Positions 3-13,753 of a stretch of 25,710 nt of DNA are shown here, in pieces. The stretch covers positions 1 through 25,710 of the IMG/VR virus record IMGVR_UViG_3300048839_000119. One strand, written 5' to 3'. Each line of letters starts with the position of its first letter. Position 1 is the first letter of the stretch. Both the position numbers and the translations under genes were made by a program. The notes below the pieces were generated by a model. That model made no database searches, was not told the origin of the DNA, and saw nothing but the letters and a program-made list of their open reading frames with translations. The stretch is from a virus.

Positions 3-446
3 AGTCGTAGGGGTCCACTTCCCCAGCACGTCAACAAGCCCAAAACGACTTCCCTTGTGCCCCCGGTTGAGCCTACGGTTGAGAAGCCATCCTTGGATAT
101 GGCTCAACTGGATCAGACGATTTCCGAGACAGTTCGTAGGGTCATTCAGGCAGAACTTTCCAAGATTCAGATTCCAGCGCCTACGGTTGCTGCTCCACCC
201 CCTGTGTTGGACAAGGACGAGTTGTTGAGCACTATTTCAGCGGCATTGAGACAAATACCTGTCTCTGCCGGGTATGGTGGAAATGTTGCGTCCCCTCCTA
301 AAAAGGATGACGACGTATTGTTCATTCCTACCAACATTGTGGAAAAGGACAGCAAGACTACCATTGCCTTGAAAACCGAGGTATCAGACGACAAGTTGGA
401 TGATGCCGCACAAGCTCTACGAAACCTTCGCAAGAAAAAGAAGTGA
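3..446 (+). CDS. Small proline-rich, basic-tailed protein, 5' truncated
   Basis: The reading frame is open from base 3, so the gene probably begins upstream. A GTG at 57 is the first usable internal start but has no Shine-Dalgarno sequence. The visible protein has Pro/Thr/Val-rich linkers, a helical stretch (LDQTISETVRRVIQAELSKI) about 20 residues after that GTG, a second helix after a PPP segment, and a very basic end (LRNLRKKKK). Its stop codon overlaps the GTG start of the actin-like gene (GTGA, 443-446), so the two are probably translationally coupled. No family is recognised. From the coupling and the basic tail I infer a possible adaptor or DNA-binding partner of the actin-like protein, but a structural or scaffold role is equally possible. 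Confidence 0.6.
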   Translation, partial: SRRGPLPQHVNKPKTTSLVPPVEPTVEKPSLDMAQLDQTISETVRRVIQAELSKIQIPAPTVAAPPPVLDKDELLSTISAALRQIPVSAGYGGNVASPPKKDDDVLFIPTNIVEKDSKTTIALKTEVSDDKLDDAAQALRNLRKKKK

Positions 447-1483
447 TTATGGGGAGACCAAAGAAAATGACAGATGCAGATAAGTTCCTTGGGGTGGGGC
501 TCGATATGGGCACCATGAACATCGTTTCCGCACGCCGAACCGAGCAGGGGGTTGTAACCAACCGTATCCGAGACTCGTTCATCACGGTCCCCAAGGAGCA
601 CAAAAAGATGCTCCGACTTGGGAACGTCCACTTCAAGGAGATGGGCGATGACATCGTAATCGTCGGAGACGCTGCATACGACATGGCTAACGTGTTCGGC
701 AAGGAAGTGCGACGCCCATTGTCAGCCGGTCTTATCGCTTCCGGCGAGATGGATGCTATGACTGTGTTGGGTTTCTTGGTACAACAGGTGCTCAAAGACC
801 CCAAAGTTCCGAACGAAGTGTGCTATTTCTCCGTTCCAGCGGCTCCTGTGGATGATCCTACGAAGGACGTGATTTACCACCGGGGGGTACTTGAGCGTAT
901 CATCACGGAATGTGGGTACAAGGCGGTTCCTGCGAATGAGGCGATGGCGATTATTTACTCCGAGTGTGCCAAGGAAAATTTCTCTGGTATTTCGTTCTCA
1001 TTTGGCTCTGGTATGACCAACGTAGCCCTCTCCATCTTCACCCAGGAGGGACTGAGCTTCTCGGTTGCCCGAGGTGGAGATTGGATTGACCAAGGTGCGG
1101 CTAGATCTACAGGGAGCACCCAGGCTCGCATGTGTACGATCAAGGAAAAGGGCCTGAATTTGATGAAGCCCGAAGGTCGGGAGCAAGAGGCTCTGACCGT
1201 GTACTACAAGAACCTCATCGAGTATGCGATTGATGCTGTCTCTCGTGAGTTCGATAAGGTGAGAAATAAGTTCGACCTTCCCAACGCGATCCCGATTATT
1301 GTATCCGGTGGTACCAGTAAAGCTGAAGGGTTCTTGGAGTTCTTCAAGCAGGTGTTTGAGGATCGTCGTAAGCGATTTCCTATCGAAATCAGTGAGATCC
1401 GAGCAGCCCGTGATCCTCTTAATGCCGTTGCACAGGGTTTACTAGTCCAGGCGGTCCAAGAGTACGAGGACGACGAAGATTGA
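443..1483 (+). CDS. Actin-like (ParM/MreB/Hsp70-fold) ATPase
   Basis: This 346-residue protein shows the actin-fold nucleotide-binding motifs in order. Phosphate-1 is LDMGTMNIVSA (Asp21-Met22-Gly23-Thr24), the connect-like segment is PANEAMAIIYSE (about 163-174), phosphate-2 is FSFGSGMTNVA (about 185-195), and the adenosine motif is IIVSGGTSKAEGF (about 285-297). Such proteins in phages and plasmids form ATP-dependent filaments that position DNA or replication centres. An Hsp70-like non-filament role cannot be excluded. Oddly, the Asp that normally opens phosphate-2 (DxGxGT) is Ser here. The C-terminus is acidic (YEDDED). The GTG at 443 overlaps the previous stop; an ATG at 449 (MGRPKK) is an alternative start. 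The fold is clear and the cellular role is inferred. Confidence 0.8.
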   Translation: MIMGRPKKMTDADKFLGVGLDMGTMNIVSARRTEQGVVTNRIRDSFITVPKEHKKMLRLGNVHFKEMGDDIVIVGDAAYDMANVFGKEVRRPLSAGLIASGEMDAMTVLGFLVQQVLKDPKVPNEVCYFSVPAAPVDDPTKDVIYHRGVLERIITECGYKAVPANEAMAIIYSECAKENFSGISFSFGSGMTNVALSIFTQEGLSFSVARGGDWIDQGAARSTGSTQARMCTIKEKGLNLMKPEGREQEALTVYYKNLIEYAIDAVSREFDKVRNKFDLPNAIPIIVSGGTSKAEGFLEFFKQVFEDRRKRFPIEISEIRAARDPLNAVAQGLLVQAVQEYEDDED

Positions 1484-1521
1484 TTTTTCACCCTATGCTC
1501 ATGCTAGGGGAGAGGCTTTGA

Positions 1522-2751
1522 ATGTACTTCTACCTCACAGAGCAGATCCAGCGAAAGTTCATTTGGGAGTTACGTCGTTACTGGCAGTATCACCCCAAAT
1601 ATCAGGACATCGTAGAGCACATTCAGGGGAAATATTCGTTTCGAGAACGTCCTCAGTATGGCATCATCCTGAAAAACAGTTCAGGTAACTTGGTCACTTT
1701 GGCCGCTGACAACTTTGTAGGTCACGTCCAAAGCTATGTCCAACTTGCTCATGTGGAAAACTACCCAGGAACATCTATTGAATGGGTTCGTGAGAACGCG
1801 AAGGCCATTCAAGAGAACGAGGGATATTTTCCAGCGATGCCTGGGATTTATTACATCGAGCTTTGTGATGAGAATGGGAACCCCTCGACGGAGAAGTTCT
1901 TTGTAGACCCTTTGTTGGATGTCACGGATGAGACCGTCTTGTACGTGTCGGGGGACACGTACCAACTCGCACGAGGGAAGTTCTTACCGGGCACTCTGAA
2001 GCTGTATGAAATGCCGGGGAGCATCGAGCTAGTCGAGGGGGTCAACTATACGGCAGACCCAGAAACAGGCGCTATCGAACTTATCATTCCTCTCGAAACC
2101 GCCAAAAATGAGTTCCTATCCGCCGATTATCGGTACCCCGCGGAGACAATGGGGCCATACAAGGTTCAAGAGCGTATGGGGTTGATTGATGCTATTCCCG
2201 GTGTTGTATTGGCATTTGGTCAGCGTATTGTCCCAGGGGATAGACTTGCTGTTGTGGTCACGGAGAGCCGGGATCTGACGGCGATGGAGTTCGGTGGAAA
2301 ATGGGACTTGAATATTGACTTCGATATCACGGCGAGGTCACCCAATACCCAGAGGGAGATTTTGGACCAGACAGCGACGTACCTCTGGGGTGTCGCTCGT
2401 TCTCGACTGTCCGCAGAGGGGATTGAGATGGTTTCATTGTCGTTGGGCGGTGAGAGTGAGGAGATTTACGACGACAATGGGGACGACTATTTTTACACGG
2501 CGAGTTTTTCTGTTTCTGTACAGACGGATTGGTGTCTCCATGTCCCATTAGGAGCTACCATTCGACGTATCCTCCCCGGTTTCGAGGATGGTTATGGGGC
2601 ATTGGCTGGACTCAGTGATGAGGAAATCGCTAAAGTGGATGCTGGGTTGCAACCTTTGGAGAGCCTTGGCTTACGCAGTCCCTTTGACCCGTTTTTCGTG
2701 GGCAAGGCGAATCGACCGGGTGTGCTCGCTACGTTCGAGAGGATCATCTAA
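1522..2751 (+). CDS. Virion structural protein, possible neck/tail-terminator
   Basis: This 409-residue protein has no signal peptide or membrane segment. A purine-rich Shine-Dalgarno tract (aggggagagg) lies about 8 nt before the ATG. Residues 1-130 hold aromatic-rich alpha/beta sequence. The middle (about 130-210) has alternating beta strands and a PETGAIEL turn. Residues about 265-345 follow the pattern 'DLNIDFDITARSPNTQRE...YLWGVARSRL...FSVSVQTDW', which resembles the strand-helix-strand layout of tail terminator/neck proteins that measure subunits around a ring. Its position upstream of the sheath, in a structural operon, supports a neck or tail-completion role. I do not recognise a definite family. 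A baseplate or head-tail connector protein is the main alternative. Confidence 0.72.
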   Translation: MYFYLTEQIQRKFIWELRRYWQYHPKYQDIVEHIQGKYSFRERPQYGIILKNSSGNLVTLAADNFVGHVQSYVQLAHVENYPGTSIEWVRENAKAIQENEGYFPAMPGIYYIELCDENGNPSTEKFFVDPLLDVTDETVLYVSGDTYQLARGKFLPGTLKLYEMPGSIELVEGVNYTADPETGAIELIIPLETAKNEFLSADYRYPAETMGPYKVQERMGLIDAIPGVVLAFGQRIVPGDRLAVVVTESRDLTAMEFGGKWDLNIDFDITARSPNTQREILDQTATYLWGVARSRLSAEGIEMVSLSLGGESEEIYDDNGDDYFYTASFSVSVQTDWCLHVPLGATIRRILPGFEDGYGALAGLSDEEIAKVDAGLQPLESLGLRSPFDPFFVGKANRPGVLATFERII

Positions 2752-2786
2752 ATCACTATCTAGGCTATATCTCGAATGGTATAGAC

Positions 2787-2805
2787 AAGGGAGAGTAGCG
2801 TCATT
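2787..2805 (+). promoter_or_regulatory. Shine-Dalgarno site deciding an ATT start
   Basis: AAGGGAGAG (2787-2795) is a strong Shine-Dalgarno match. Its last base lies 7 nt before ATT 2803, an optimal spacing, and no standard start codon sits in the window it would serve. Together with the conserved N-terminal pattern this fixes the start of the zinc-ribbon gene. AUU initiation is known for bacterial infC, where it is used for autoregulation. Confidence 0.6.
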
Positions 2806-3270
2806 CCTAGCTTTAATTACCAGTGTTCCAAGTGCGGTTTGCGATTTGAGCAGATTGTGTCTGCCTCGAACGCAGACCTTAGTGTTCCGTGCAAACGGTG
2901 CAAGAGTGGAACAAAAAAACTGGTATCCGCTGGAAGTTTTACTGTCTCCCATGTGCCCAATGGACCGAAACCTCAAAACACTGGTTTTTCATCAGTTGAC
3001 CATGAGGTTGACCGTATTATTGGGCGTGACGCCGAGCTTCGCTTACGAGAGATGCAAAAACGACAGGATCTCAAACGTTCTGTCATTCACAAAAATGCGA
3101 CCGATGGGTTTCATTTGAGTCGTCAAGTTGAAGGGGACTATCGAGTCATGACGGATGAAGAAAAAGTGGCAGCGGAGAAGGGTCGTAACCTCCATCTACA
3201 GGCATTAGAGAAGATTAATGCGTATTTGAAACGTCGAAAGGCCAAAGAATCCGCAAACGGGACTGCCTAA
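2803..3270 (+). CDS. FmdB-like zinc-ribbon protein with probable ATT start
   Basis: The protein has 155 residues if started at ATT 2803. It then begins MPSFNYQCSKCG, matching the 'MPxYxYxCxxCG' start of FmdB-type zinc ribbons, and has two knuckles, Cys8/Cys11 and Cys30/Cys33. The first ATG-like alternative in frame, TTG 2839, would delete the first CxxC and break the zinc site. An in-frame stop at 2782 and the absence of ATG, GTG or TTG between there and 2839 leave ATT as the best start. After the ribbon comes a charged, largely helical region (about 75-150) with a basic Lys/Arg-rich end. FmdB-like ribbons are common small proteins of uncertain function. Placement just before the sheath suggests a virion or late-regulation role, which is inference. 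Confidence 0.75.
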   Translation: MPSFNYQCSKCGLRFEQIVSASNADLSVPCKRCKSGTKKLVSAGSFTVSHVPNGPKPQNTGFSSVDHEVDRIIGRDAELRLREMQKRQDLKRSVIHKNATDGFHLSRQVEGDYRVMTDEEKVAAEKGRNLHLQALEKINAYLKRRKAKESANGTA

Positions 3271-3432
3271 GTTGGTAGTCGCTACTTACCCGCAAGGGGA
3301 TATTTAGATAGTACATACTCACTAGATTTGAATAAACATCGTCAGCCTACCTTCGTGGAAAATATTGAGACCTATTTACCCCACCATATTTAGACCAAAC
3401 GACATTTTCCAACAAGCGACTTCCCAACCCAG

Positions 3433-3469
3433 GGATGGATTTCAATTCATCCTAGTCTAAAAATAGAGG
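3433..3469 (+). promoter_or_regulatory. Sheath 5'-leader hairpin plus ribosome binding site
   Basis: An 8-bp hairpin (3433-3440 with 3445-3452, loop TTCA, one G-T pair) is followed by an AGAGG Shine-Dalgarno sequence at 3465-3469, 8 nt before the sheath ATG. It lacks a T-tract, so it is more likely an mRNA-stabilising leader stem than a terminator. The rest of the 207-bp spacer (3271-3477) shows no gene and no convincing promoter. Confidence 0.45.
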
Positions 3470-3477
3470 CTGTCAAC

Positions 3478-6400
3478 ATGACTTTTCCAGGAAACATTTA
3501 TGCGCCACCAGGCGTTTACACCCAGACTAATTTTGAGTCCCCTACGGGCGGAGTCATCGCAGGTGTAAGAATTCCAGTTATCGTAGGTACTGGTAACGAG
3601 ATTTTAACCCAGTCGAACCTTGAGGTGATTCGTGGTTCGTCTTCCCAGGTAGACCAGTTTGTTCCTCAAGAGGACATGACAGGTCGTGCGGTGGTACAAG
3701 TGCTTACCACAGGTGAGGTCGTTCTCGGAGACTTCAACGGCTCCCGTAGAAAAATCCAGGTTCGTAACTTCCCCATCGTACAGGGTGACGGTTCCGGTAC
3801 GGTTGCTTCCGACACCAGCGTTGTGTTGGTGACCATCAATGGTCGCCCTGACGTGGTATTGAGCGTGTCCCAGGCATCCCAGGGTATCATCGAGCTTTCG
3901 ACGGCTCCCCAGCTTGGAGACGACGTTCGGGTTTCGTACTACTTCAACCGCACTGACACTCGCACCACGGACAATGTATCCTCACAGGTTACTTCCTCCG
4001 CAGCGATCATCGAAGGTCTGAAGGGCGCACCCGTAGGCGGCTTCCTTTTCGCACAGGAGACTCGTTCCCTTCAGGTTCGTGTTGATGGCACCCTTCTTAC
4101 CATCGACCTTGGTCTCGGTGCAAAAAATGCCGCAACGGTGGTTTCTTTGATCAACGGTGCTGCAACGGGGACTTCCCTTGTGGCGAGCACGTTCACCAAC
4201 AACTTCGCCCAGACGGCTATCCGTTTGACGGCAGCACAGGAACTTGAGATTCTTTCCGGTGGGGCAAATACGGTTCTTGGGTTCACCACGGGGGATAAGA
4301 CCGTCCGTAACAATGTGTTCTTTGTTTACAACGGACCCATCGTGACGGGTGACAACGGTGGTGTTACGACTACCGACCCTTCCCGTGTCACGGTCAAGGT
4401 GAACAATGTTCAGGTGATTCCAACCGCTGTTGACGGTCAGACTCGCGCAGTAACCCTACCCTTCGCACCAGCGGCGGGCTCGACGGTTACCATTGAGTAC
4501 TACTTCAACACCTGGCAGGATACGTTCGACTACCTGGCAAACATCGGGATCACCCAGGTTCTTTCCTGTGGTATCGTGCCAAATAACCGCGACTACGTTC
4601 AGGGGGCGGACTTCATCCTCAAGGATGACAAGATCCTCTGGGGGACATCGTTCCTCATTTCGGCGGGAGAAAATACCTCTGGGGCAACCCTGTTCAACGA
4701 GGTTCAGGTGTCTGGACTTCTGATTGACAATCGTTGGTTCCTGTCTCCTACCTCGTCGGTGACGGACACATCCGTGAACCCTCCAGTAACGAGCCGGGTT
4801 CAGTTCTCACTTCCAGTTCAGCCTACCACGGGTGACGGTCGTAACAACCCCCTTGGTCTCTCGGAGTTCGAGAAAGTCTCGAATGGTCGTCGTGACCTTC
4901 CTACCAACAACCCAAATCTTGTTCTGGCCTATTGGGGGTTCGGTGTTCAGGATGCAATCGACCGTGGGCCAGTTCCAGTGCTCAAGGTCGAGGGGAATGT
5001 TATCACCCTCAAGAACCCCGTGCCCGTTGGAGCAGAAGTCTTTGCTACCTTCTACTACAATGTGCTTGTAGACAATGAGTATTCTCTCGTTGTGGACAAC
5101 CCCGGACCTTCGGGACTTGGTACATACCGTATTCTTGACAAGGACGGAAATGCCATTTACACTCCGGTATTTGGGAGCAAGGGTCCAGCCCTTACGGGGA
5201 TCACGATCAACTTCCCAAGTGGATCGGAGTTGACCCCTGACGTTCGTTTCGAGGGTGGAGCAACCGGACCTGTTGAGGAGACGGTGACTGTTACCTTCGC
5301 GGAACAGGATGCGACCTTGGCGAAGTTCTCGGTTCCTGGAGCCGGGCCATACTTCTTCATCGAGAACGCTTCCGACCGCGCTCGTGTGACGGTAGACAGC
5401 GCAACCCTCGTTGGAGGTGCGGCTGGTATTGACCTCAGCGCCGTGAACGGAATCTCGGGACTTGGTTTCGCGGCTTCGATTCTCGGTGAGGAAATCAGCT
5501 ACACCATCAGTTCGGGTCAAACGACGTATGACATTCTTCCCGGTGTGAATGACCAGTTGGCCATCACCGTAGACGATGTTGTTATCAATGTCGAGGTTCC
5601 CGCACAGAATGGTGTGAACGCTGATGCCTATGTTGAGGCAATCAACGCTCACGCTAAGTTGGAGGAGTTCGCTCCGGTGTACGAGAGCACCACGAGTTTC
5701 TTGGCTCCCGTGGTGATTTCGGCGGGCGCTTATGATTCTGTCTACTTCAACTACACGGGTGTTACAAGCGGACCTACCGGACCTGTTGCGGTGTCCATCC
5801 CAGCGGGGACATATAACTCGCCAAGTCAACTCGCGGCGGCTGTGGACTCGGCATTTGATACCGCAATCGTTGCGTTGCCAGCAATTTATGACGGTTTCGA
5901 TGTTCAGGTGAATGTCAATGCTGAAGGCAAGCTGACCTTCAAGCTCCTTGGAGCGGACGCTGACCTTGGAACCTTTGCATCGGGTACGATTACCTCCAAT
6001 AGCTCGGTTCTCGGAGATACCTTCGAGATTGACGGGGTAACCGTCACGGGATCCTTGACTCAAACTTCGGGAGGATTAAACTACAATACGGGACAAGCTC
6101 GTGCGACCTTGGTGCCAACGGGAGTTCAGCCCGGAGACACCTTCACCATCGACGTTGGTGGTGGTCCGATTGTCATCACGGCAGCGGGAGCACAGACCTC
6201 CGGTGGGTTCAACTTCGATGAGGGGGATCAGGCAACTGGTTCGTTCGTCGTGGCGGGACCAATCCCAGGGGATACGGTAACCATCGGTTCCGTGACGCTT
6301 ACGGCGGCTGGGGCTGAGACGGGTGCGTTGGACTTCGATGAGGGTGTTCGCGCATCCGGGTCGGTCCAGTTGGTCGGCGCATTGTATGGGGATACCTTTA

Positions 6401-9400
6401 CAATGGATGCTTCTCCCTTCGGAGGTGGTTTGGTCACCCTTACGGCTGGCCCAACACGTACTCCGGGTGGGTTGAACTTCAACGCTGGTACCAAGGCGAG
6501 CGGTACCGTTACTTTCAACGGTGTTCGAATCGGTGACGTACTCACCATCAACGGTAACCCACTTACCGCAGTGGGTAACGGAGCCCCTGTTCTGGCCGAC
6601 CAGTTCTATGCTGGAGACCAGGCAACCGCCTCTGTCACCCTAATCGCCAATGCGTTGCCAAACACGGGTCTTCTTTACGGAGATACCGTGACCATCGGTG
6701 GTGTAACCCTTACCGCAGCCAACACCATCGTTTCCGGTGGGTTGAACTTCGATATCGGTCTCCAGGCGACCACCTCGGTCACCATCGCCCTGTCGTCATC
6801 AACCGCTACCTTGACCATTGACGGATTGCCTCTGGCACCCGCTGGTGGACCTCGTACCTCCGGTGGTAACGACTACGACAACACCCTCGGAACTACGGCG
6901 CTTATCGCCGCAGACGTGGTAGCAGCGATTAACGATCCTGCGAACGCTTTCTCGGGTCGTATGACGGCAGCACTTGGCCCCGGTCCAAACGATGTCACCT
7001 TGACATGGATTGTTCCCGGTTCGTTTGCAAACGGTGTCTTGGTATCCTCCTCGGATGCAACCATCACGGTGGCGGGTAACTTCGCTGGTGGTGTGGGTGA
7101 CGAGAACCTGTCGGCAGCATCCCTTGCGGTAGCTGTCAACGATGCCCTCAACGGCATTGCAGGTACGGTATCGGCACTTGCAGCGGCTAACGTGGTGAAC
7201 CTTACCGCTGTGACTCCAGGGTTGGCTGGTAACAGCATCCTGCTTACCTCAAGCGATCTCGTTCGCTTGGCAACGGTGGCCTTCGCGGGTGGTGCGGGTG
7301 ACAACCCAACGGCAGCCTCGAATGCTAACGCCGCAATCAACCTTATCACAAACTCCTTCGCAGTGGATGTCGCATCCACAGTAGTAGGAAATGTGGTAAC
7401 GCTTACGGCGGTGGTTCCAGGTTCGGTGGGCAACAGCATCACGCTCAATGCTGGTTTGGCGGCGGGACGTTTCGTTCTCTCCGGTGCAACCCTCGTAGGC
7501 GGTGTCGGAAACGACATTTCCGCAGCATCGAGCTTGGTCCAGGCAATCCAGGATCCACTCAACGGTCTGTCCCAGTACTTCGTAGTGGACAATGCCGGTG
7601 GTACATCCAATACGATCAGCATCCTTGCGTTCACTCCAGGGGTGGCCGGTAACGCCGTCACTTTGGTGGATAACACCGGGTCTGTTCGTATCATTCCAAT
7701 CGCGGGTACCCTGCTTGGTGGTGTAGGAACCAACGCAACCGTTGCTGCTTCGCTGGCCGCAGCCATCAACAATCCTCTCAACGGATTGACAACCCTGGTC
7801 TCCGCGCTCGCGGTAGGTGCAACCGTGAATATCACGGCTGTGACCCCAGGAAACGCTGGAAATACCATCGTGTTGGCTTCCAGTAACGCTCTACGGTTGG
7901 TCCGCAGCGGTGCTACTCTCACGGGTGGCGTCGGTACGAATCTTTCCGTGGCCAACAGCATCGTGGCAGCCATCAATGACATCGCAAACGGCCTTGCCGT
8001 CGCGGTAACCGCATCCAATGAGAGCGGAACCTCGACAACGGTAACGGTCTACGCGAATGTTCCAGGGGTGGCCGGTAACGCCTTCACCATCGCTTCGAGT
8101 ACGGGTGTTCGATTGCCCGTATCCGGTGCGAACTTCGTGGGTGGTCTTACCAACATCCAGGTCGCCTCGACAATGGTGGCAGCAATCAATGATGCCCTCA
8201 ACGGACTCAATGGAGTTGTATCGGCAGATAACCTCTCTGGTACTTCCGCCATTGTGACCGTAACCGCAGAAGTCCCCGGACCTCTCGGTAACAGCATCGT
8301 GTTGGCTTCCAGCAACGGAACCCGCTTGCCTCTCTCCGGCGCAACCCTCACGGGTGGCGTGGGCCTTGGAGGTGGATACTTGGAGTTCATCGACGCCCCT
8401 GTGGCGGCGGAGGACTTCGCAATCCTCGCGGGTATCTCCACCGATGAGCTTCCTGGGGAATCCCAGACCAAGATCATCAATGGTGATATCGCCCGTCGCT
8501 TCACCGTGGCGGGAGCATCCGGTCGCTTGATTTACGACCGTATCCTCCTTCGTAACCGTATCATCCCCGGTGATTCCTCCGTGTTCGGTGGATCACAGGT
8601 GGGTCAGACCAACCTTATCGTTCAGGGTAACAACGCGATCACCGAAACTGGACTTCTCCCACAAGCCTCTGGTCTTGCAGGAATCCAGGCAACCGTGTCG
8701 CCATCAACCCTGGTCGGAAATGTTGGATTTGCCGATGGTCAGGTTCCAAACGGTACCTACGGCGATGCCCGTGACGGTCAACCAGCGGTGATTTTCTTCG
8801 CTGAGGGTGGAACAAACCCAGCCAACAACGTGTTCAAGTTCAACGTTGATGGTCGTCCCGTAACCGTCGTGTTCCGAGATGCCTCCGGTGTGGTAATCCC
8901 CTCCGGTGGGTCCGCAAGTGTTCCACTTGGTCCCGTAGGTGTGGCAAACACGGTCCTGAATCAGATTCAGGCCGCAGCGGTGGCACAGGGTCTCCCCTCC
9001 TCCGTCGTTCGCCAAGAAGGTGCTGGAATCCGTCTCGTGTCCTCGTTGACCAACACGGATTCGAGTGTCGCTATCGGTAACGCTAGCGCCAATGATAGAC
9101 TCGGGTTCTCTAACAACGCTCTCGTGAGCCGCGTTTCCGTACAACCCGAAGTCGCAGCCTCCGCATTGATGTCCCATGCCAATGCCGCGATTAGTGACCT
9201 CTACCTGGATTTCCAGAATCCAGATTCCGGTTACTTTGCAGCACAAGCCTTGGCAGGTGTCATCCGTGACGACGTGGGTGCAGAATATCTGTACCTCCAG
9301 TCGCAGGCAAATAACATCATCGGCCTCGGACCTTCCTCGAACATCACGCTCGAAAATGCTACCACCAACTCCTGGTTGCTCCCAGGAACCAAGTTGGACG

Positions 9401-10842
9401 CAACTCCATTCAGTGGAGCCTCGGGAGAAGCCGGAATCTCCGGTTTCTATGTCACCTCCTCCGATCCAGTCAATGGCTCGGGTTCGGCTAACACCTCCGT
9501 TCTCAACAGCGGTGTCGGTCAGGATGGTGTCATCGGTCAAACCTACCGCGATGCCATCACCGGCCTCGTGTTCACAATCCTCCCACGCTCCGGTGGCGGA
9601 AACTACCCAACCGGACCAGGGGCAGAGTTCACCTTTGAAGTTCGTGAATTGGTCACAACCAACGCGAACCTTCCAGTCAACTCTATCCCAGGATTGGAAT
9701 TGTTGGTCGCAAATACCACGGGTATCGCCTCCGGGGATACCGCTATCGTGGAGACCTTCGAGCGCGGTGGAAATGAACCAGCGGTTGGAGACAGCTACTT
9801 CGTAACGTATAACTACGCTAAGTCCGAAGCTGACTTCCAGACCCGAGTGTTCTCACAACAAAGAGTTGTGGAGCGTAACTATGGCGCAACAACCCCTGAA
9901 AATCCTGTGTCCCTTGCCGCCTTCTTGACCTTCTCCAACGGAGCAGTTCTCGTAGGTATCAAGCAAGTTCCAAAAGACCCAGGTAGCAATCAGGCATCGG
10001 TAGCCTCCTACCTCGACGCATTCGACTCCCTTACAGGATTCTTGCCAGGTGGAGCATCACTGGATACCATCACACCCCTTCGTGGCGACAGCTTGACCCT
10101 GTTCCAGCGTCTCTCTAACCACGTCGATATCCAGTCCAGTATCCGCTACCGTCAGGAGCGCACAGCGATTATCGGAGTTTCCTCCGGTACTCAACCCACC
10201 GAAGTTGGGGATATCGCAGAGGCAATCAAGAACACACGTATGCGTTTGATCTACCCAGACATCGCATTACTCACCATTTCCGATGCCCTCGGAAATGATA
10301 AGCAGTTCTTGGTCGATGGTACCTACTTGGCCGCAGCCGTCGCAGGTACACGCGCCTCCCCAACCCGAGACGTGGCAACACCCTGGACACGTACTCCAAT
10401 CGTTGGTTTCGACTCATTGGGTCGTACCCTCGATGCAGTACAACAAAATCAGGTCGCCGTTCGCGGTGTCACTGTCATCGAAGAACGTGGTCGCTCCATG
10501 CGTATCATGCAGGGTCTCACTACGGATAACTCGAACGTCCTCACTCGTACACCAACTACGATTACTATCGCAGACGAGGTGCAGCGAGCAGCACGTCGAG
10601 ACTTGGACCGTTTCATCGGTATCAAGTTCCTCCCCGGTGTTCTCCCAGAAATCGAAGGCCAGTTGACCTTCACCCTCAAACAGTTGAAAAACAGCGAAAT
10701 CATCGCTGCCTACACTGGAGTACAAGCACGTACAACCAATGACCCAACAACGGTCGAGGTTTTGGGTTACTACCAGCCGGTATTCCCACTGCTGTACATT
10801 ATCATCACGTTCAACCTCCGCTCTAACCTCGGAGCAGGATGA
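3478..10842 (+). CDS. Giant tail sheath protein (2454 aa) with repeat insertion
   Basis: The protein starts MTFPGNIYAPPGVYT, the typical sheath opening. From about residue 2100 it carries a recognisable sheath core and C-terminal domain: SLAAFLTFSNGAVLV, a QERTAIIGV strand, RMRLIYPDIA, a DGTYLAAAVAG segment, then RRDLDRFIGIKFLPG and a beta-rich end. Contractile sheath proteins are usually about 350-700 residues, so this is several times longer. The excess lies between the N-terminal strand and the core. It contains three Ig-like units ending in YYFN/YYN, at least six units with a GDTxTI...SGGLNF pattern, and seven tandem units of about 70 residues ending in GATLxGGVG. The gene uses codons such as AAC, TTC, ACC and GGT heavily, consistent with high expression. 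The insertion probably decorates the tail surface, possibly for host or glycan contact (inferred). Identification as sheath is firm from both ends. Confidence 0.9.
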   Translation: MTFPGNIYAPPGVYTQTNFESPTGGVIAGVRIPVIVGTGNEILTQSNLEVIRGSSSQVDQFVPQEDMTGRAVVQVLTTGEVVLGDFNGSRRKIQVRNFPIVQGDGSGTVASDTSVVLVTINGRPDVVLSVSQASQGIIELSTAPQLGDDVRVSYYFNRTDTRTTDNVSSQVTSSAAIIEGLKGAPVGGFLFAQETRSLQVRVDGTLLTIDLGLGAKNAATVVSLINGAATGTSLVASTFTNNFAQTAIRLTAAQELEILSGGANTVLGFTTGDKTVRNNVFFVYNGPIVTGDNGGVTTTDPSRVTVKVNNVQVIPTAVDGQTRAVTLPFAPAAGSTVTIEYYFNTWQDTFDYLANIGITQVLSCGIVPNNRDYVQGADFILKDDKILWGTSFLISAGENTSGATLFNEVQVSGLLIDNRWFLSPTSSVTDTSVNPPVTSRVQFSLPVQPTTGDGRNNPLGLSEFEKVSNGRRDLPTNNPNLVLAYWGFGVQDAIDRGPVPVLKVEGNVITLKNPVPVGAEVFATFYYNVLVDNEYSLVVDNPGPSGLGTYRILDKDGNAIYTPVFGSKGPALTGITINFPSGSELTPDVRFEGGATGPVEETVTVTFAEQDATLAKFSVPGAGPYFFIENASDRARVTVDSATLVGGAAGIDLSAVNGISGLGFAASILGEEISYTISSGQTTYDILPGVNDQLAITVDDVVINVEVPAQNGVNADAYVEAINAHAKLEEFAPVYESTTSFLAPVVISAGAYDSVYFNYTGVTSGPTGPVAVSIPAGTYNSPSQLAAAVDSAFDTAIVALPAIYDGFDVQVNVNAEGKLTFKLLGADADLGTFASGTITSNSSVLGDTFEIDGVTVTGSLTQTSGGLNYNTGQARATLVPTGVQPGDTFTIDVGGGPIVITAAGAQTSGGFNFDEGDQATGSFVVAGPIPGDTVTIGSVTLTAAGAETGALDFDEGVRASGSVQLVGALYGDTFTMDASPFGGGLVTLTAGPTRTPGGLNFNAGTKASGTVTFNGVRIGDVLTINGNPLTAVGNGAPVLADQFYAGDQATASVTLIANALPNTGLLYGDTVTIGGVTLTAANTIVSGGLNFDIGLQATTSVTIALSSSTATLTIDGLPLAPAGGPRTSGGNDYDNTLGTTALIAADVVAAINDPANAFSGRMTAALGPGPNDVTLTWIVPGSFANGVLVSSSDATITVAGNFAGGVGDENLSAASLAVAVNDALNGIAGTVSALAAANVVNLTAVTPGLAGNSILLTSSDLVRLATVAFAGGAGDNPTAASNANAAINLITNSFAVDVASTVVGNVVTLTAVVPGSVGNSITLNAGLAAGRFVLSGATLVGGVGNDISAASSLVQAIQDPLNGLSQYFVVDNAGGTSNTISILAFTPGVAGNAVTLVDNTGSVRIIPIAGTLLGGVGTNATVAASLAAAINNPLNGLTTLVSALAVGATVNITAVTPGNAGNTIVLASSNALRLVRSGATLTGGVGTNLSVANSIVAAINDIANGLAVAVTASNESGTSTTVTVYANVPGVAGNAFTIASSTGVRLPVSGANFVGGLTNIQVASTMVAAINDALNGLNGVVSADNLSGTSAIVTVTAEVPGPLGNSIVLASSNGTRLPLSGATLTGGVGLGGGYLEFIDAPVAAEDFAILAGISTDELPGESQTKIINGDIARRFTVAGASGRLIYDRILLRNRIIPGDSSVFGGSQVGQTNLIVQGNNAITETGLLPQASGLAGIQATVSPSTLVGNVGFADGQVPNGTYGDARDGQPAVIFFAEGGTNPANNVFKFNVDGRPVTVVFRDASGVVIPSGGSASVPLGPVGVANTVLNQIQAAAVAQGLPSSVVRQEGAGIRLVSSLTNTDSSVAIGNASANDRLGFSNNALVSRVSVQPEVAASALMSHANAAISDLYLDFQNPDSGYFAAQALAGVIRDDVGAEYLYLQSQANNIIGLGPSSNITLENATTNSWLLPGTKLDATPFSGASGEAGISGFYVTSSDPVNGSGSANTSVLNSGVGQDGVIGQTYRDAITGLVFTILPRSGGGNYPTGPGAEFTFEVRELVTTNANLPVNSIPGLELLVANTTGIASGDTAIVETFERGGNEPAVGDSYFVTYNYAKSEADFQTRVFSQQRVVERNYGATTPENPVSLAAFLTFSNGAVLVGIKQVPKDPGSNQASVASYLDAFDSLTGFLPGGASLDTITPLRGDSLTLFQRLSNHVDIQSSIRYRQERTAIIGVSSGTQPTEVGDIAEAIKNTRMRLIYPDIALLTISDALGNDKQFLVDGTYLAAAVAGTRASPTRDVATPWTRTPIVGFDSLGRTLDAVQQNQVAVRGVTVIEERGRSMRIMQGLTTDNSNVLTRTPTTITIADEVQRAARRDLDRFIGIKFLPGVLPEIEGQLTFTLKQLKNSEIIAAYTGVQARTTNDPTTVEVLGYYQPVFPLLYIIITFNLRSNLGAG
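3817..5070 (+). repeat. Three Ig-like beta units in the sheath insertion
   Basis: Three diverged protein units at 3817-3954, 4381-4515 and 4963-5070 share the pattern V-x-V-x-x-N/G-x...hydrophobic strand...P-x-x-G-x-x-V-x-x-x-YYFN (YYN in the third). They are spaced irregularly and look like surface beta-sandwich units. Resemblance is at protein level only. Confidence 0.55.
6010..6897 (+). repeat. GDTxTI/SGGLNF tandem protein repeats in sheath
   Basis: Units begin near 6013, 6133, 6268, 6388, 6532 and 6679, with a degenerate seventh near 6796. Each has GDTFTIDG or a variant, then V-x-L-T-x-A, then TSGGLNF-x-x-G-x-x-A, then a variable strand. Unit length is about 40-50 residues. The DNA is diverged between copies, so this is an old protein-level expansion. 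Confidence 0.7.
6898..8364 (+). repeat. Seven tandem ~70-residue GGVG repeats in sheath
   Basis: Copies run 6898-7107, 7108-7305, 7306-7515, 7516-7734, 7735-7941, 7942-8154 and 8155-8364, that is 198-219 bases each. The consensus is a helix (AASLAAAINDPLNGL), a strand pair, T-A-x-x-P-G-x-A-G-N-x-I-x-L, then SSxxxRL and SGATLxGGVG. Similar 'PGxxGNxIxL' units occur in other phage tail and fibre proteins. The last copies (5-7) are the most alike. Confidence 0.8.
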
Positions 10843-10848
10843 CGAAGG

Positions 10849-10891
10849 TAGTTGCATTAGTGATCCCGATTGGGGTATACTAATGCAACTA
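10849..10891 (+). promoter_or_regulatory. 13-bp perfect dyad over a promoter-like site
   Basis: TAGTTGCATTAGT (10849-10861) and ACTAATGCAACTA (10879-10891) are perfect inverted repeats. The loop can add a short inner stem (10863-10867 with 10872-10876). TTGCAT (10852-10857) and TATACT (10876-10881) sit 18 bp apart like -35 and -10 boxes, and each overlaps one arm. The downstream arm reaches the A of ATG 10891. It could be an operator-promoter, a start-codon-hiding hairpin, or a post-sheath mRNA stem. No T-tract follows. Confidence 0.45.
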
Positions 10892-13161
10892 TGATGGATC
10901 GAATAATCGAGGGGTTTGCAAAACAAGTCTCGGCTAACGAACTAGCGAAGGAGCTAGGGGTTAGCCGAGACTTGGTATTTAAGGTGTGGGGTGAGGAGTA
11001 CGGTCAAGAGGCCATACGGGAGAGAGGGAATCGGTTACGTTCGCAACGGAAGTTGGGTACGGGTAACAACGCGAAGGATGAGGTGAGGGAGAGAAGCTAT
11101 GAGTTGTTTGAGGGTGGGGTGTTACAGAAGGATGCGGCGAAGGAGTTAGGGGTCCACCCTACGGTGATTGGGGCTTGGTGGAAGGAACGATTTGGCCTTG
11201 ATAGGATTCGAGAACGTGGTGCGAGTTTGAAGTCAAAGAGTTTGAAGGGTCAAAAAAGAGAGCCCAAGGTTGTGATTTGTGAGAAATGTGGGAAGCCTGG
11301 TAGTGGTCATCTTGAACCTTACGTTTGTGAGGTGTGCTCGACTGCACCCTTGCCGTTTAAATGCCCTGCCTGTGGTGTTGGGTTTTCGACACGTAGGGGA
11401 TTAGGATTGCATGTTGGGCATCAAAAAGGGGATGGGGTACATGATGAGATTCATCTACCTAAAGTGCGTAGGTACAAGGCACGTCCTCCGATTCAGCGCA
11501 AGGGCCTGAAGAAAGCGGTGGCATGTACGGAGTGCTCTGTGGAGTTTCAGGCATCGAGGTTTAGTCGGCAGATCGTATGTTCCCCCTGTCGAGAGAAAAG
11601 CAAGGTGCCATCGGTACATGTGACCTGTATGGAATGTGGGTATAAGGCAGAAAATCTTGTGTCTCACGTTATGTCCGCGCACCCTGGGTTGAAGTACAAG
11701 GTCAAGTACCCTGACTTCAAGATGGCTGTTCACAAGGATTCCCATAAGAAGGGATATCAGTTCTCGAAAGAGGAGCTTTCGAAGTATGTGGATGAGAAGG
11801 GGCAAGTCATTGTGTCACAGGTAGCAAGGGTGTACAAATGTGCTCCATACACCGTGACCCGAGCTTGCAACAAATGGGGACTAAAAACCCGTAGCAGGTT
11901 AGCTTGGCAGGAAGCGGTTTTGAAGGAAGCCTCGAAGATTTTTGGGGAGTGTATCACCAACTGGACTCGCCCCGACATTGTATCCCCCACCACCAACCAT
12001 GTGCTTTATTACGACGGGTTTTTTCCTGAGCACAACTTGATCATTGAGGCACATGGTAAGCAACATTTTCATTTCATTCACAACTGGCATCGTTCGTATG
12101 ACAAGTTTGAGGAACTTCAAGCGATTGATGAGTGGAAGGTACAGCGAGCAAGGGAGCTTGGATACAAGATCCGAGTGGTTCGATATACGGACTCATTGGA
12201 AGACCCGTCTTTTTGGACTGAGTTGATGGACAGCGATTTGTTTGTCCAAGAAAAGACGGACATCAAAGAGATTGTCGATTCATTGGGTCCATTTCCTGTC
12301 ATCCAACCGAGTTCCAAAACCCAAGGGGAGTTTGAGAAACTGAAGACTCAAACTTTTTACTTGGACGAAGCCAACACGATACGGAAATACTCCCTACGTG
12401 GAACGGTCATTTGTTCCTCCTACTTCCCCAACCGTTATTCGGCAAGGTATAAGGGGATGATGTCGGTTAGGGAGGCGTGGGACGACCCTGACATGTTGGC
12501 CAAAGCGGTCAAGGTGCAAGTCAATTCAGGGGACAAAATCGACCCAGGGAGCGTTCTCAAGGCGTTGGTGATGTTGTGTAAGACACCTTCCGTGTTTCGG
12601 CCCGGAGTGGCCAAGTTTATTTGTGATCGATATGCCAAAAAAGGCGTGGTTTTTGACCCTTGCGCGGGATACGGGGGTCGCTTGTTCGGTGCTTTAGCAA
12701 GTGGGGTGACGTATCACGGGATAGATATCAACCCGGATACGGTTCAAGGGAACCTTGACCTTGCGAGGGCTTTGGGGTTGGAATCAAAAGTCACCTTGGA
12801 GCATTCGTCGATTGAGGAGTTCGTCCCTCCCAGTGGAGTGGCGGATTTGGTGTTCACTTCTCCTCCTTACTATGATTTGGAGAGGTATGGTCATGAGAAC
12901 ACATATTTGAGTGCTCAAGATTGGGAAGATCGATTTCTTCGTAGTTTGGTGTCCAAGGCGCAACAGGTTTTGAAGTCAGGGGGGGTTTTGGCTCTCAACC
13001 TCCCAGCAAAGCCGGTTTCCGGGTATTGTATCTTGGACCGGGTGATGAAGCTAGCTTTGGAATCTGGGTTCGATTTCCTTGAGACTTTGTACATGCCCAT
13101 TCGAGGTGTAAAATCTGGAGAGAAGGTTGAACCGATAGTTAGCTTCGTCAAAAGTAGATAA
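10891..13161 (+). CDS. Zinc-finger/HTH nuclease-DNA methyltransferase fusion
   Basis: The protein has 756 residues from ATG 10891. A TTG at 10870 would add seven but lies inside a hairpin loop. Positions here count from the TTG (subtract 7 for the ATG). Two similar HTH units (about 10-60 and 70-125) each end in IRERG. Four Cys/His zinc modules follow (C137/C140/C153/C156; C165/C168/H181; C219/C222/C237/C240; C253/C256/H266/H271), then a third HTH-like part (about 300-345). Residues about 380-440 form a Vsr/PD-(D/E)XK-like nuclease: YDGFFPEHN, IIEAHGKQHF, then AIDEWK and GYKIRVVRY. Residues about 577-763 are an amino-methyltransferase: motif I DPCAGYGG (596-603), GIDINP (617-622), catalytic SPPYYD (664-669). 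It would bind DNA, cut it and methylate adenine-N6 or cytosine-N4. It could be a self-protecting homing endonuclease or a single-chain restriction-modification protein. Codon use (TTT, GGG, TTG) differs from the sheath. Confidence 0.82.
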   Translation: MMDRIIEGFAKQVSANELAKELGVSRDLVFKVWGEEYGQEAIRERGNRLRSQRKLGTGNNAKDEVRERSYELFEGGVLQKDAAKELGVHPTVIGAWWKERFGLDRIRERGASLKSKSLKGQKREPKVVICEKCGKPGSGHLEPYVCEVCSTAPLPFKCPACGVGFSTRRGLGLHVGHQKGDGVHDEIHLPKVRRYKARPPIQRKGLKKAVACTECSVEFQASRFSRQIVCSPCREKSKVPSVHVTCMECGYKAENLVSHVMSAHPGLKYKVKYPDFKMAVHKDSHKKGYQFSKEELSKYVDEKGQVIVSQVARVYKCAPYTVTRACNKWGLKTRSRLAWQEAVLKEASKIFGECITNWTRPDIVSPTTNHVLYYDGFFPEHNLIIEAHGKQHFHFIHNWHRSYDKFEELQAIDEWKVQRARELGYKIRVVRYTDSLEDPSFWTELMDSDLFVQEKTDIKEIVDSLGPFPVIQPSSKTQGEFEKLKTQTFYLDEANTIRKYSLRGTVICSSYFPNRYSARYKGMMSVREAWDDPDMLAKAVKVQVNSGDKIDPGSVLKALVMLCKTPSVFRPGVAKFICDRYAKKGVVFDPCAGYGGRLFGALASGVTYHGIDINPDTVQGNLDLARALGLESKVTLEHSSIEEFVPPSGVADLVFTSPPYYDLERYGHENTYLSAQDWEDRFLRSLVSKAQQVLKSGGVLALNLPAKPVSGYCILDRVMKLALESGFDFLETLYMPIRGVKSGEKVEPIVSFVKSR

Positions 13162-13184: not shown

Positions 13185-13337
13185 ACGATGAGGATGCGGA
13201 TAGCGTCGATTTTAGCTGCGGTATCATGAACATCCGAAAGCGTTAGAGTTCTCTCTGTAGCGGTGTGTGCTTGTGGAAACAGGCTCCTGCTCACCGACCC
13301 CAACCCGAAGTTCCACGGGTGCGGGGTCGGTTTTTTT
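13179..13337 (+). ncRNA. Structured leader RNA or small RNA before the SpeD gene
   Basis: About 155 noncoding bases lie between the extended -10 promoter and an intrinsic terminator. By eye it forms an irregular long hairpin: 13179-13182 plus 13185-13187 pair with 13241-13247 (2-nt bulge), enclosing GGATG/CATCC (13192-13196 with 13231-13235) and GATA/TATC (13199-13202 with 13222-13225). A small AGAG/CTCT hairpin follows (13245-13256), overlapping the first stem's edge. CGGTG (13261-13265) can pair with CACCG (13292-13296), which overlaps the terminator's 5' arm, so the two folds are mutually exclusive as in attenuators and riboswitches. It matches no riboswitch class I can recall. A free-standing small RNA is the alternative. 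Confidence 0.45.
13293..13337 (+). terminator. Intrinsic terminator upstream of the SpeD gene
   Basis: ACCGACCCC (13293-13301) pairs perfectly with GGGGTCGGT (13323-13331). ACCCG/CGGGT (13303-13307 with 13316-13320) extends the stem inside the loop. A run of T follows to 13337. It lies before the SpeD start, so it would cut off leader transcription unless read through. Confidence 0.85.
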
Positions 13338-13357
13338 GTTATGGGATATGTAATGGT

Positions 13358-13753
13358 ATGCGAGGGGTAAACGCTGGTTATCATCTCATCATGGATGCTG
13401 TTGTAGTGCCGTCGATGGCGGACAAACTCAACGATCCTGTTTTTTTGGACTCCTTTTTCCGGGATTTAATCCCTGTGTTGAAGATGGAAATCTTGGAAGA
13501 ACCTAGATTCAAGGTTGTGCCATTTATTCCTGGCAATTTGGAGTCAGATTCAGACGAGGGTGGTGTTACGGGTACATGTTTGATCACGACGAGTCATGTT
13601 TCGATTCACACATGGCCGTTACGTCGGAAGTTTTCGATGGATGTGTTTTCTTGCAAGGAGTTCAGTCGTCAGGAGGCGGAGGAGTTTATTTGCAAGTCTC
13701 TTGGAGTGTCCCAGAAATGGGTTCACTGGGTTGAGCGCAATTGGCCCGGCTGA
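13358..13753 (+). CDS. speD: SpeD-family pyruvoyl decarboxylase (AdoMetDC-like)
   Basis: The protein has 131 residues, close to the short bacterial/archaeal class of S-adenosylmethionine decarboxylase. It begins near the family's GYHLIMD strand. The core is TTSHVSIHTWP...MDVFSC. Ser79 is the expected pyruvoyl-forming serine, His84 lies five residues on and Cys99 twenty residues on, the same spacing as Ser63/His68/Cys83 of the Thermotoga enzyme. The Glu normally before the cleavage serine is Thr78, and the Glu usual after the HTWP motif is Leu88. AdoMetDC makes decarboxylated SAM for spermidine synthesis. Some SpeD homologues are reported to decarboxylate ornithine or arginine instead, so the substrate is open. 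The frame is open upstream to 13265 but that extension is the terminator, so ATG 13358 is chosen, although its Shine-Dalgarno is weak. Confidence 0.8.
   Translation: MRGVNAGYHLIMDAVVVPSMADKLNDPVFLDSFFRDLIPVLKMEILEEPRFKVVPFIPGNLESDSDEGGVTGTCLITTSHVSIHTWPLRRKFSMDVFSCKEFSRQEAEEFICKSLGVSQKWVHWVERNWPG

Follow-up and report, generated by a model that had tools for sequence, protein, structure and literature searches.

A nuclease-methyltransferase fusion gene behind a virion gene

The window analysed here is the whole 25,710-nucleotide stretch of viral DNA in record IMGVR_UViG_3300048839_000119, in which a long open frame encoding a nuclease fused to an amino-methyltransferase (MT) follows a gene of the virion. 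The features of this locus are as follows.

3478-10842, + strand: virion gene of 2454 aa upstream of the fusion, a probable tail sheath gene and the conserved neighbour at the putative homing site
10774-10839, + strand: last 22 codons of the upstream gene, putative target region, recoded in other fusion carriers and not clearly so in the window
10849-10891, strandless: perfect 13-bp inverted repeat ending at the start codon, arms 10849-10861 and 10879-10891
10891-13161, + strand: HTH-zinc-EDxHD nuclease-methyltransferase fusion gene, 756 aa from the ATG at 10891 (763 aa from an alternative TTG at 10870)
10891-11250, + strand: two duplicated HTH modules (sequence repeat; AlphaFold helices 2-56 and 59-121; weak match to HTH_28)
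11275-11682, + strand: four zinc modules, CxxC pairs plus C2H2-like (Cys/His pattern read in the sequence; modelled structure of low confidence here)
11893-12237, + strand: Vsr/EDxHD nuclease core, with invariant D376, E387, H393, D414 and K417, and Asn358 against Glu in relatives
12340-13158, + strand: amino-methyltransferase (MT) domain, with DPCAGYGGR at 12655-12681 and SPPY at 12859-12870

The chain runs from the two HTH modules through the four zinc modules and the nuclease core to the MT at its C-terminus. By eye, the HTH duplicates read KELGVSRDLVFKVWGEEYG..IRERG and KELGVHPTVIGAWWKERFG..IRERG, and the AlphaFold model contains two matching helical modules; the zinc modules are readable at residues 131-264, where C247, C250 and H260 are near-invariant among 26 relatives. 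Modelling of the full fusion by AlphaFold2 with 25 relatives yielded a mean pLDDT of 80. A search of the PDB with the fusion sequence retrieved zinc fingers and weak methyltransferases only, and an NCBIfam search returned nothing above the cutoff. The first-pass annotation, made from the sequence without database searches, had described a real chain of HTH, zinc, nuclease and MT parts, a description borne out by the open frame, the HTH repeat, the Cys/His pattern, the PHROG and Pfam matches, the predicted fold and the conservation among relatives.

The same annotation had placed the gene between sheath and tube genes, and this stands in part. The C-terminus of the upstream gene resembles Phage_sheath_1C weakly (E 0.12), and a PDB profile search with this gene gave chance matches only. 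Directly downstream of the fusion, however, lies a gene for S-adenosylmethionine decarboxylase (13265-13753, + strand; AdoMet_dc, E 4e-18), and no tube gene was recognised among the ORFs next downstream. In a contig without the fusion (L092), an S-adenosylmethionine decarboxylase gene directly follows the putative sheath gene. An Rfam scan of the window recovered 0 RNA families, so no known intron lies there, and ARAGORN found no tRNA in the window. Positions 443-1483 (+ strand) of the window match the Pfam family Volactin (PF25216, E 4e-77) and thus encode a phage homologue of this actin-like protein, which was described from archaea.

A Vsr-like nuclease core joined to a conserved methyltransferase

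PHROG 559, annotated as 'HNH endonuclease', matches residues 208-490 of the fusion (E 2e-9). Because methyltransferases fill the Foldseek list obtained with the whole model, we folded the nuclease region by itself (pLDDT 89). The Foldseek E-value of this model to Vsr was modest (2e-3); re-alignment with VIA gave Z scores of 9.9 for the Vsr structure 1cw0 (124 aligned, 3.6 Å) and 8.8 for 1vsr, and brought up the homing enzyme I-Bth0305I (3r3p; Z 8.2, 94 aligned, 3.8 Å), which lay outside Foldseek's top 50 by E-value. In the model, the catalytic domain is a Vsr/I-Bth0305I-like fold. The nuclease residues named in the first-pass annotation, Asp382, Glu393, Gln398 and Lys423 when counted from the TTG, correspond to columns D376, E387, Q392 and K417; three of them are invariant in 26 sequences, as are H393 and D414, and Gln398 is near-invariant. 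The Vsr-like nuclease proposed at the outset is thus upheld by the PHROG match, by the Vsr and I-Bth0305I fold scores and by residue conservation. At position 358, the window protein has Asn in a column where nearly all relatives have Glu.

The MT half scores above the Pfam gathering threshold for N6_N4_Mtase (E 1.6e-6) and retains DPCAGYGGR and SPPY intact, in keeping with its initial assignment as an SPPY amino-methyltransferase; PHROG 12517 and the PADLOC mad2 model also match this domain (E 8e-16 each). The SAM motif I and the SPPY-type motif IV are invariant in 12 fused MTs, the exception being L002, in which motif IV is changed to SIPY. The top folds by Z are tRNA m2G methyltransferases, so DNA, the substrate suggested by the Pfam and PADLOC matches and by context, is assigned provisionally. 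Where dS was resolvable, dN/dS was 0.12 for the EDxHD or LAGLIDADG part and 0.06-0.10 for the MT, and by this estimate purifying selection is acting on both nuclease and MT. Together with the intact family motifs, the MT ratio argues that the MT is used.

Fusion, nuclease-only and empty alleles at one site

With the upstream gene as a second probe, we collected 84 loci, some of them duplicate contigs and the window among them. Directly behind the stop codon of this gene, 20 loci (window included) have the fusion, 18 an EDxHD nuclease without MT and 37 neither, 'neither' or empty meaning no match to nuclease or MT profiles, a definition that might overlook homing genes of other kinds; the remaining 9 loci are incomplete. 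Presence and absence are polymorphic at one precise site in L161/L160, L120/L121, L117/L118, L106/L145 and other pairs; L123 and L101, whose state differences were apparent and due to contig ends, were left out. Over the 6.2 kb that lead to the stop codon, the fusion carrier L161 and the empty L160 share 99.8% identity; 2.4 kb then follows in L161 and 62 bp in L160, after which the two align again at 97.5%. Likewise, L120, a fusion carrier, and L121, which has an MT-less nuclease, share 99.2% identity as far as the stop codon.

The mismatches within these pairs are concentrated at the 3' end of the upstream gene. The final 1600 bp hold 12 mismatches between L161 and L160, every one of them synonymous and located at -13 to -76; in L120/L121, 15 of 16 mismatches lie at -10 to -64. 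Conversely, L120 and L161, both carriers, have diverged further upstream, with differences at 108 of 370 codons (29%), yet a single base separates them over the last 105 bp, and their identity stays at about 100% over 3.3 kb that take in the fusion and DNA downstream of it. Over codons -22 to -8, carriers and non-carriers differ at 9-11 of 15 positions, as against a background rate of 4 of 15 between L160 and L121, both of them without the fusion. Across lineages, local GC3 is 0.51 in fusion carriers compared with a background of 0.80 (n=15; p 0.001, a rough value since related contigs were counted as independent) and 0.81 compared with 0.81 in empties (n=28). Next to MT-less nucleases, a shorter recoded stretch, confined to the last 10 codons, was seen in two of three pairs. 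We interpret the recoded tract as the probable co-conversion footprint of a cut-resistant target copy carried by the element, with cutting presumed from the pattern of sequence change. The 'homing enzyme' of the first-pass annotation gains strong support from these footprints and from the fusion, MT-less and empty alleles at one site, and the gene is, judged from this comparison, very probably a free-standing phage homing endonuclease.

In the window itself, the end of the upstream gene has no clear recoding and no AT-rich shift, and as Asn358 moreover takes the place of a nearly invariant Glu, this copy may be weakened as an element. The same two features could be read further, as signs of decay in which the nuclease would have died already and the MT or DNA-binding part would remain, but the 756 codons read through without interruption and D376, E387, H393, D414 and K417 are intact; we regard such decay as most improbable.

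A second site behind the major head gene

The major head protein gene (PHROG 2522, E 2e-52) is the immediate upstream neighbour of 36 of 40 other fusions, all but one of LAGLIDADG type. The alleles at this site are LAGLIDADG with MT, LAGLIDADG alone and neither, and synonymous change is raised in the last 30 codons of the head gene in several pairs. L288, which has the MT, is 100% identical over 4.3 kb to L287, L292 and L294, which have none, up to the point where the MT stops (L291 is truncated by the end of its contig); the MT can thus be lost while the nuclease frame stays open. This clean loss, along with the SIPY motif of L002, would also suit a homing endonuclease whose MT fold serves chiefly in DNA binding or dimerisation and methylates incidentally or not at all. 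The invariant SAM motif and SPPY of the 12 fused MTs and the MT dN/dS of 0.06-0.10 speak against a mere binding role, and we regard it as decidedly improbable.

Contig L254 (512 kb) carries tandem homing genes after the major head gene (1828-6203, + strand), one LAGLIDADG alone and one LAGLIDADG-MT, and also has an MT-less EDxHD gene after a sheath-like gene (L119).

One methyltransferase clade with several nuclease types

A scan of viral contigs with the whole protein as sole query gave no confirmed relative, and alignment-based scans were therefore needed. The scan with an MT alignment yielded 80 loci, the best of which are fusions: EDxHD nuclease with MT in L007-L009; LAGLIDADG with MT in L010-L015, L017, L064, L074 and also L003 (Pfam LAGLIDADG_2 in L010, E 2e-25); HNH domains in L016 (PHROG 374, E 5e-105); and a second, diverged Vsr-like nuclease with MT in L002 (Pfam Vsr, E 3e-6). 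A second viral scan added 25 further distinct LAGLIDADG-MT fusions. The nuclease of L255, which has a homing-endonuclease match (PHROG 314, E 2e-8), is probably GIY-YIG, and that of L240 is, from its sequence, probably PD-(D/E)XK-like; four more fusions of the L240 type, under the same PD-(D/E)XK-like reading, lie at the capsid site (L322, L333, L336 and L342).

The MT tree unites the fused MTs in a single clade of 28 rows, 3 of them unfused (SH-aLRT 86, inner node 97), which suggests a single nuclease-MT association followed by swapping of nucleases, with the caveat that the LAGLIDADG label requires 3 changes on this tree. A separate MT origin for each type of fusion was largely set aside on the basis of this single clade. 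No such fusion was found in a scan of 84,980 prokaryote species, so the family appears to be viral, one MT module on changing nucleases; related unfused MTs are common in phages. A search for relatives with and without the nuclease half had been proposed, and MT-fused nucleases, nucleases without MT and unfused MTs were all found.

Two loci have further features. L003, from a 485-kb phage, encodes a protein of 1229 aa (1985-5674, + strand) that has an MT, C-terminal zinc ribbons and two LAGLIDADG-like regions, of which the first shows degenerate motifs. In L002, the nuclease gene beside the diverged fusion (1440-3152, + strand) matches the homing endonuclease family PHROG 3339 (E 1e-94); its C-terminus looks GNAT/Mom-like by eye, and it is possibly another homing nuclease with a DNA-modifying domain.

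A proposed homing cycle and a possible role of the methyltransferase

We propose that the HTH and zinc modules would bind the 3' end of the virion gene in a co-infecting, element-free phage and that the EDxHD domain would cut at the bound gene end, whereupon repair from the carrier would copy the fusion gene and its recoded, cut-resistant site into the element-free phage. The MT, guided by the same DNA-binding arm, would methylate the target or DNA close to it, along with sites that resemble it, and its mark would spare the carrier and any freshly converted genome; this protection would supplement the recoding as an optional second layer. Taken as a whole, a free-standing homing endonuclease with an MT that protects carrier and converted genomes is a reading to which we give about an even chance. 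Self-protection is presumably the role that best fits the MT. That the enzyme methylates its own target, as had been suggested at first, we infer from an MT that is intact and under purifying selection, yet MT-less relatives exist, and these together with the one clean loss indicate that the MT is optional. Immunity appears to come at least partly from the recoded target, and as recoding already explains self-immunity, protection by the MT may be redundant.

The mark might instead shield the shared site, or the genome, from rival homing nucleases or host restriction enzymes. Fusions and MT-less nucleases do compete for one site; L120 and L121 represent either the replacement of one by the other or the arrival of both in the same background; unfused relatives of the MT are common in phages; and phage MTases are reported to protect against restriction (PMC4190342). 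Such a role, however, would not account for an MT that shares a chain with the nuclease instead of having its own gene, or for one MT clade that tracks homing nucleases of several folds, and we judge it rather unlikely.

The presence of nuclease and MT in one chain also raises a single-chain restriction-modification weapon of type IIG kind, akin to the single-gene weapon of the first-pass annotation and directed at many sites in unmethylated DNA of competing phages or the host, for which insertion beside a virion gene would be incidental. The full model matches the type IIG enzyme BpuSI (3s1s) in Foldseek (E 4e-8, 539 columns, rmsd 14.3), and a phage intron endonuclease is reported to act in interference competition (PMC11620839). 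Homing is indicated instead by the two strictly conserved insertion sites, the co-conversion footprints and the MT-less alleles that share a site with the fusion; no recognition domain follows the MT, and no fusion was found among the 84,980 prokaryote species scanned. We therefore consider a weapon improbable.

Returning to homing with self-protection, these genes could be generalised as virus-specific, 'modification-armed' homing elements, in which one MT clade swaps among at least three, probably five, nuclease types on conserved virion genes of large phages, each element bringing a recoded copy of its target and methylating the target as self. We put this forward tentatively, as plausible but somewhat doubtful.

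Relation to known systems

The fusion shares with EDxHD homing endonucleases (I-Bth0305I and the intron VSR enzymes of Staphylococcus phages) a Vsr-like core, a long HTH/zinc DNA-binding arm and a phage-borne gene; at the sequence level, its nuclease part is weakly related to the intron VSR enzymes. Those enzymes, however, have no methyltransferase, and those relatives are intronic, whereas the fusion gene is free-standing after a virion gene. In common with the T4-type free-standing enzymes Seg, Mob and Hef, it is an intronless gene beside a conserved gene, with presence/absence polymorphism and co-conversion of flanks (PMC2988022). Cleavage by the T4-type enzymes takes place at a distance of hundreds to thousands of bp from the gene (PMC2988022), whereas the putative target of the fusion lies within about 75 bp of the gene; PMC2988022 mentions no methyltransferase half for them.

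Type IIG enzymes such as BpuSI likewise combine nuclease and amino-methyltransferase in one chain. The first-pass annotation had held that the order of parts differs from theirs, and indeed the order nuclease-MT-recognition was not encountered: the recognition arm of the fusion is an N-terminal HTH/zinc arm, not a domain after the MT, and the protein ends with the MT. The fusion, moreover, shows homing-type insertion behaviour and was only viral in this search. Phage amino-methyltransferases of PHROG 12517 and PADLOC mad2 belong to the same MT domain family, but most of them are unfused proteins of 320-400 aa, and the fused MTs form a mostly separate clade.

We found no fusion of a homing endonuclease with a methyltransferase in the open literature searched, a scope that leaves most subscription papers outside. 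The 'new kind of element' announced at first is a fair term for the composite, one MT clade with several homing nuclease types at two virion-gene sites; the gene itself appears to be a variant of the homing endonuclease, for which homing is well supported by sequence comparison. Homing endonucleases and restriction-modification are usually treated as separate selfish elements, and here one protein appears to join both chemistries, a pairing that is repeated, next to conserved virion genes, for several nuclease types unrelated to one another. The near-identical genome pairs (fusion, nuclease-only, empty) offer ready substrates for testing what keeps a homing element from cutting its own DNA. 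In its layout, the recoded gene end is reminiscent of engineered home-and-rescue drives and, if the reading is true, would be their natural counterpart.

An inverted repeat at the start codon

The 13-bp inverted repeat of the window overlaps, by eye, promoter-like hexamers (TTGCAT and TATACT), a promoter reading that a promoter scan did not recover. Strong inverted repeats precede 14 of 27 tail-site genes, compared with 2 of 81 shuffles. Several repeats ahead of tail-site homing genes overlap promoter hexamers of TTGAC type, again by eye, and some of the tail-site repeats probably serve the upstream gene as terminators. The repeat could act as the operator of an autorepressor or as a hairpin at the start codon.
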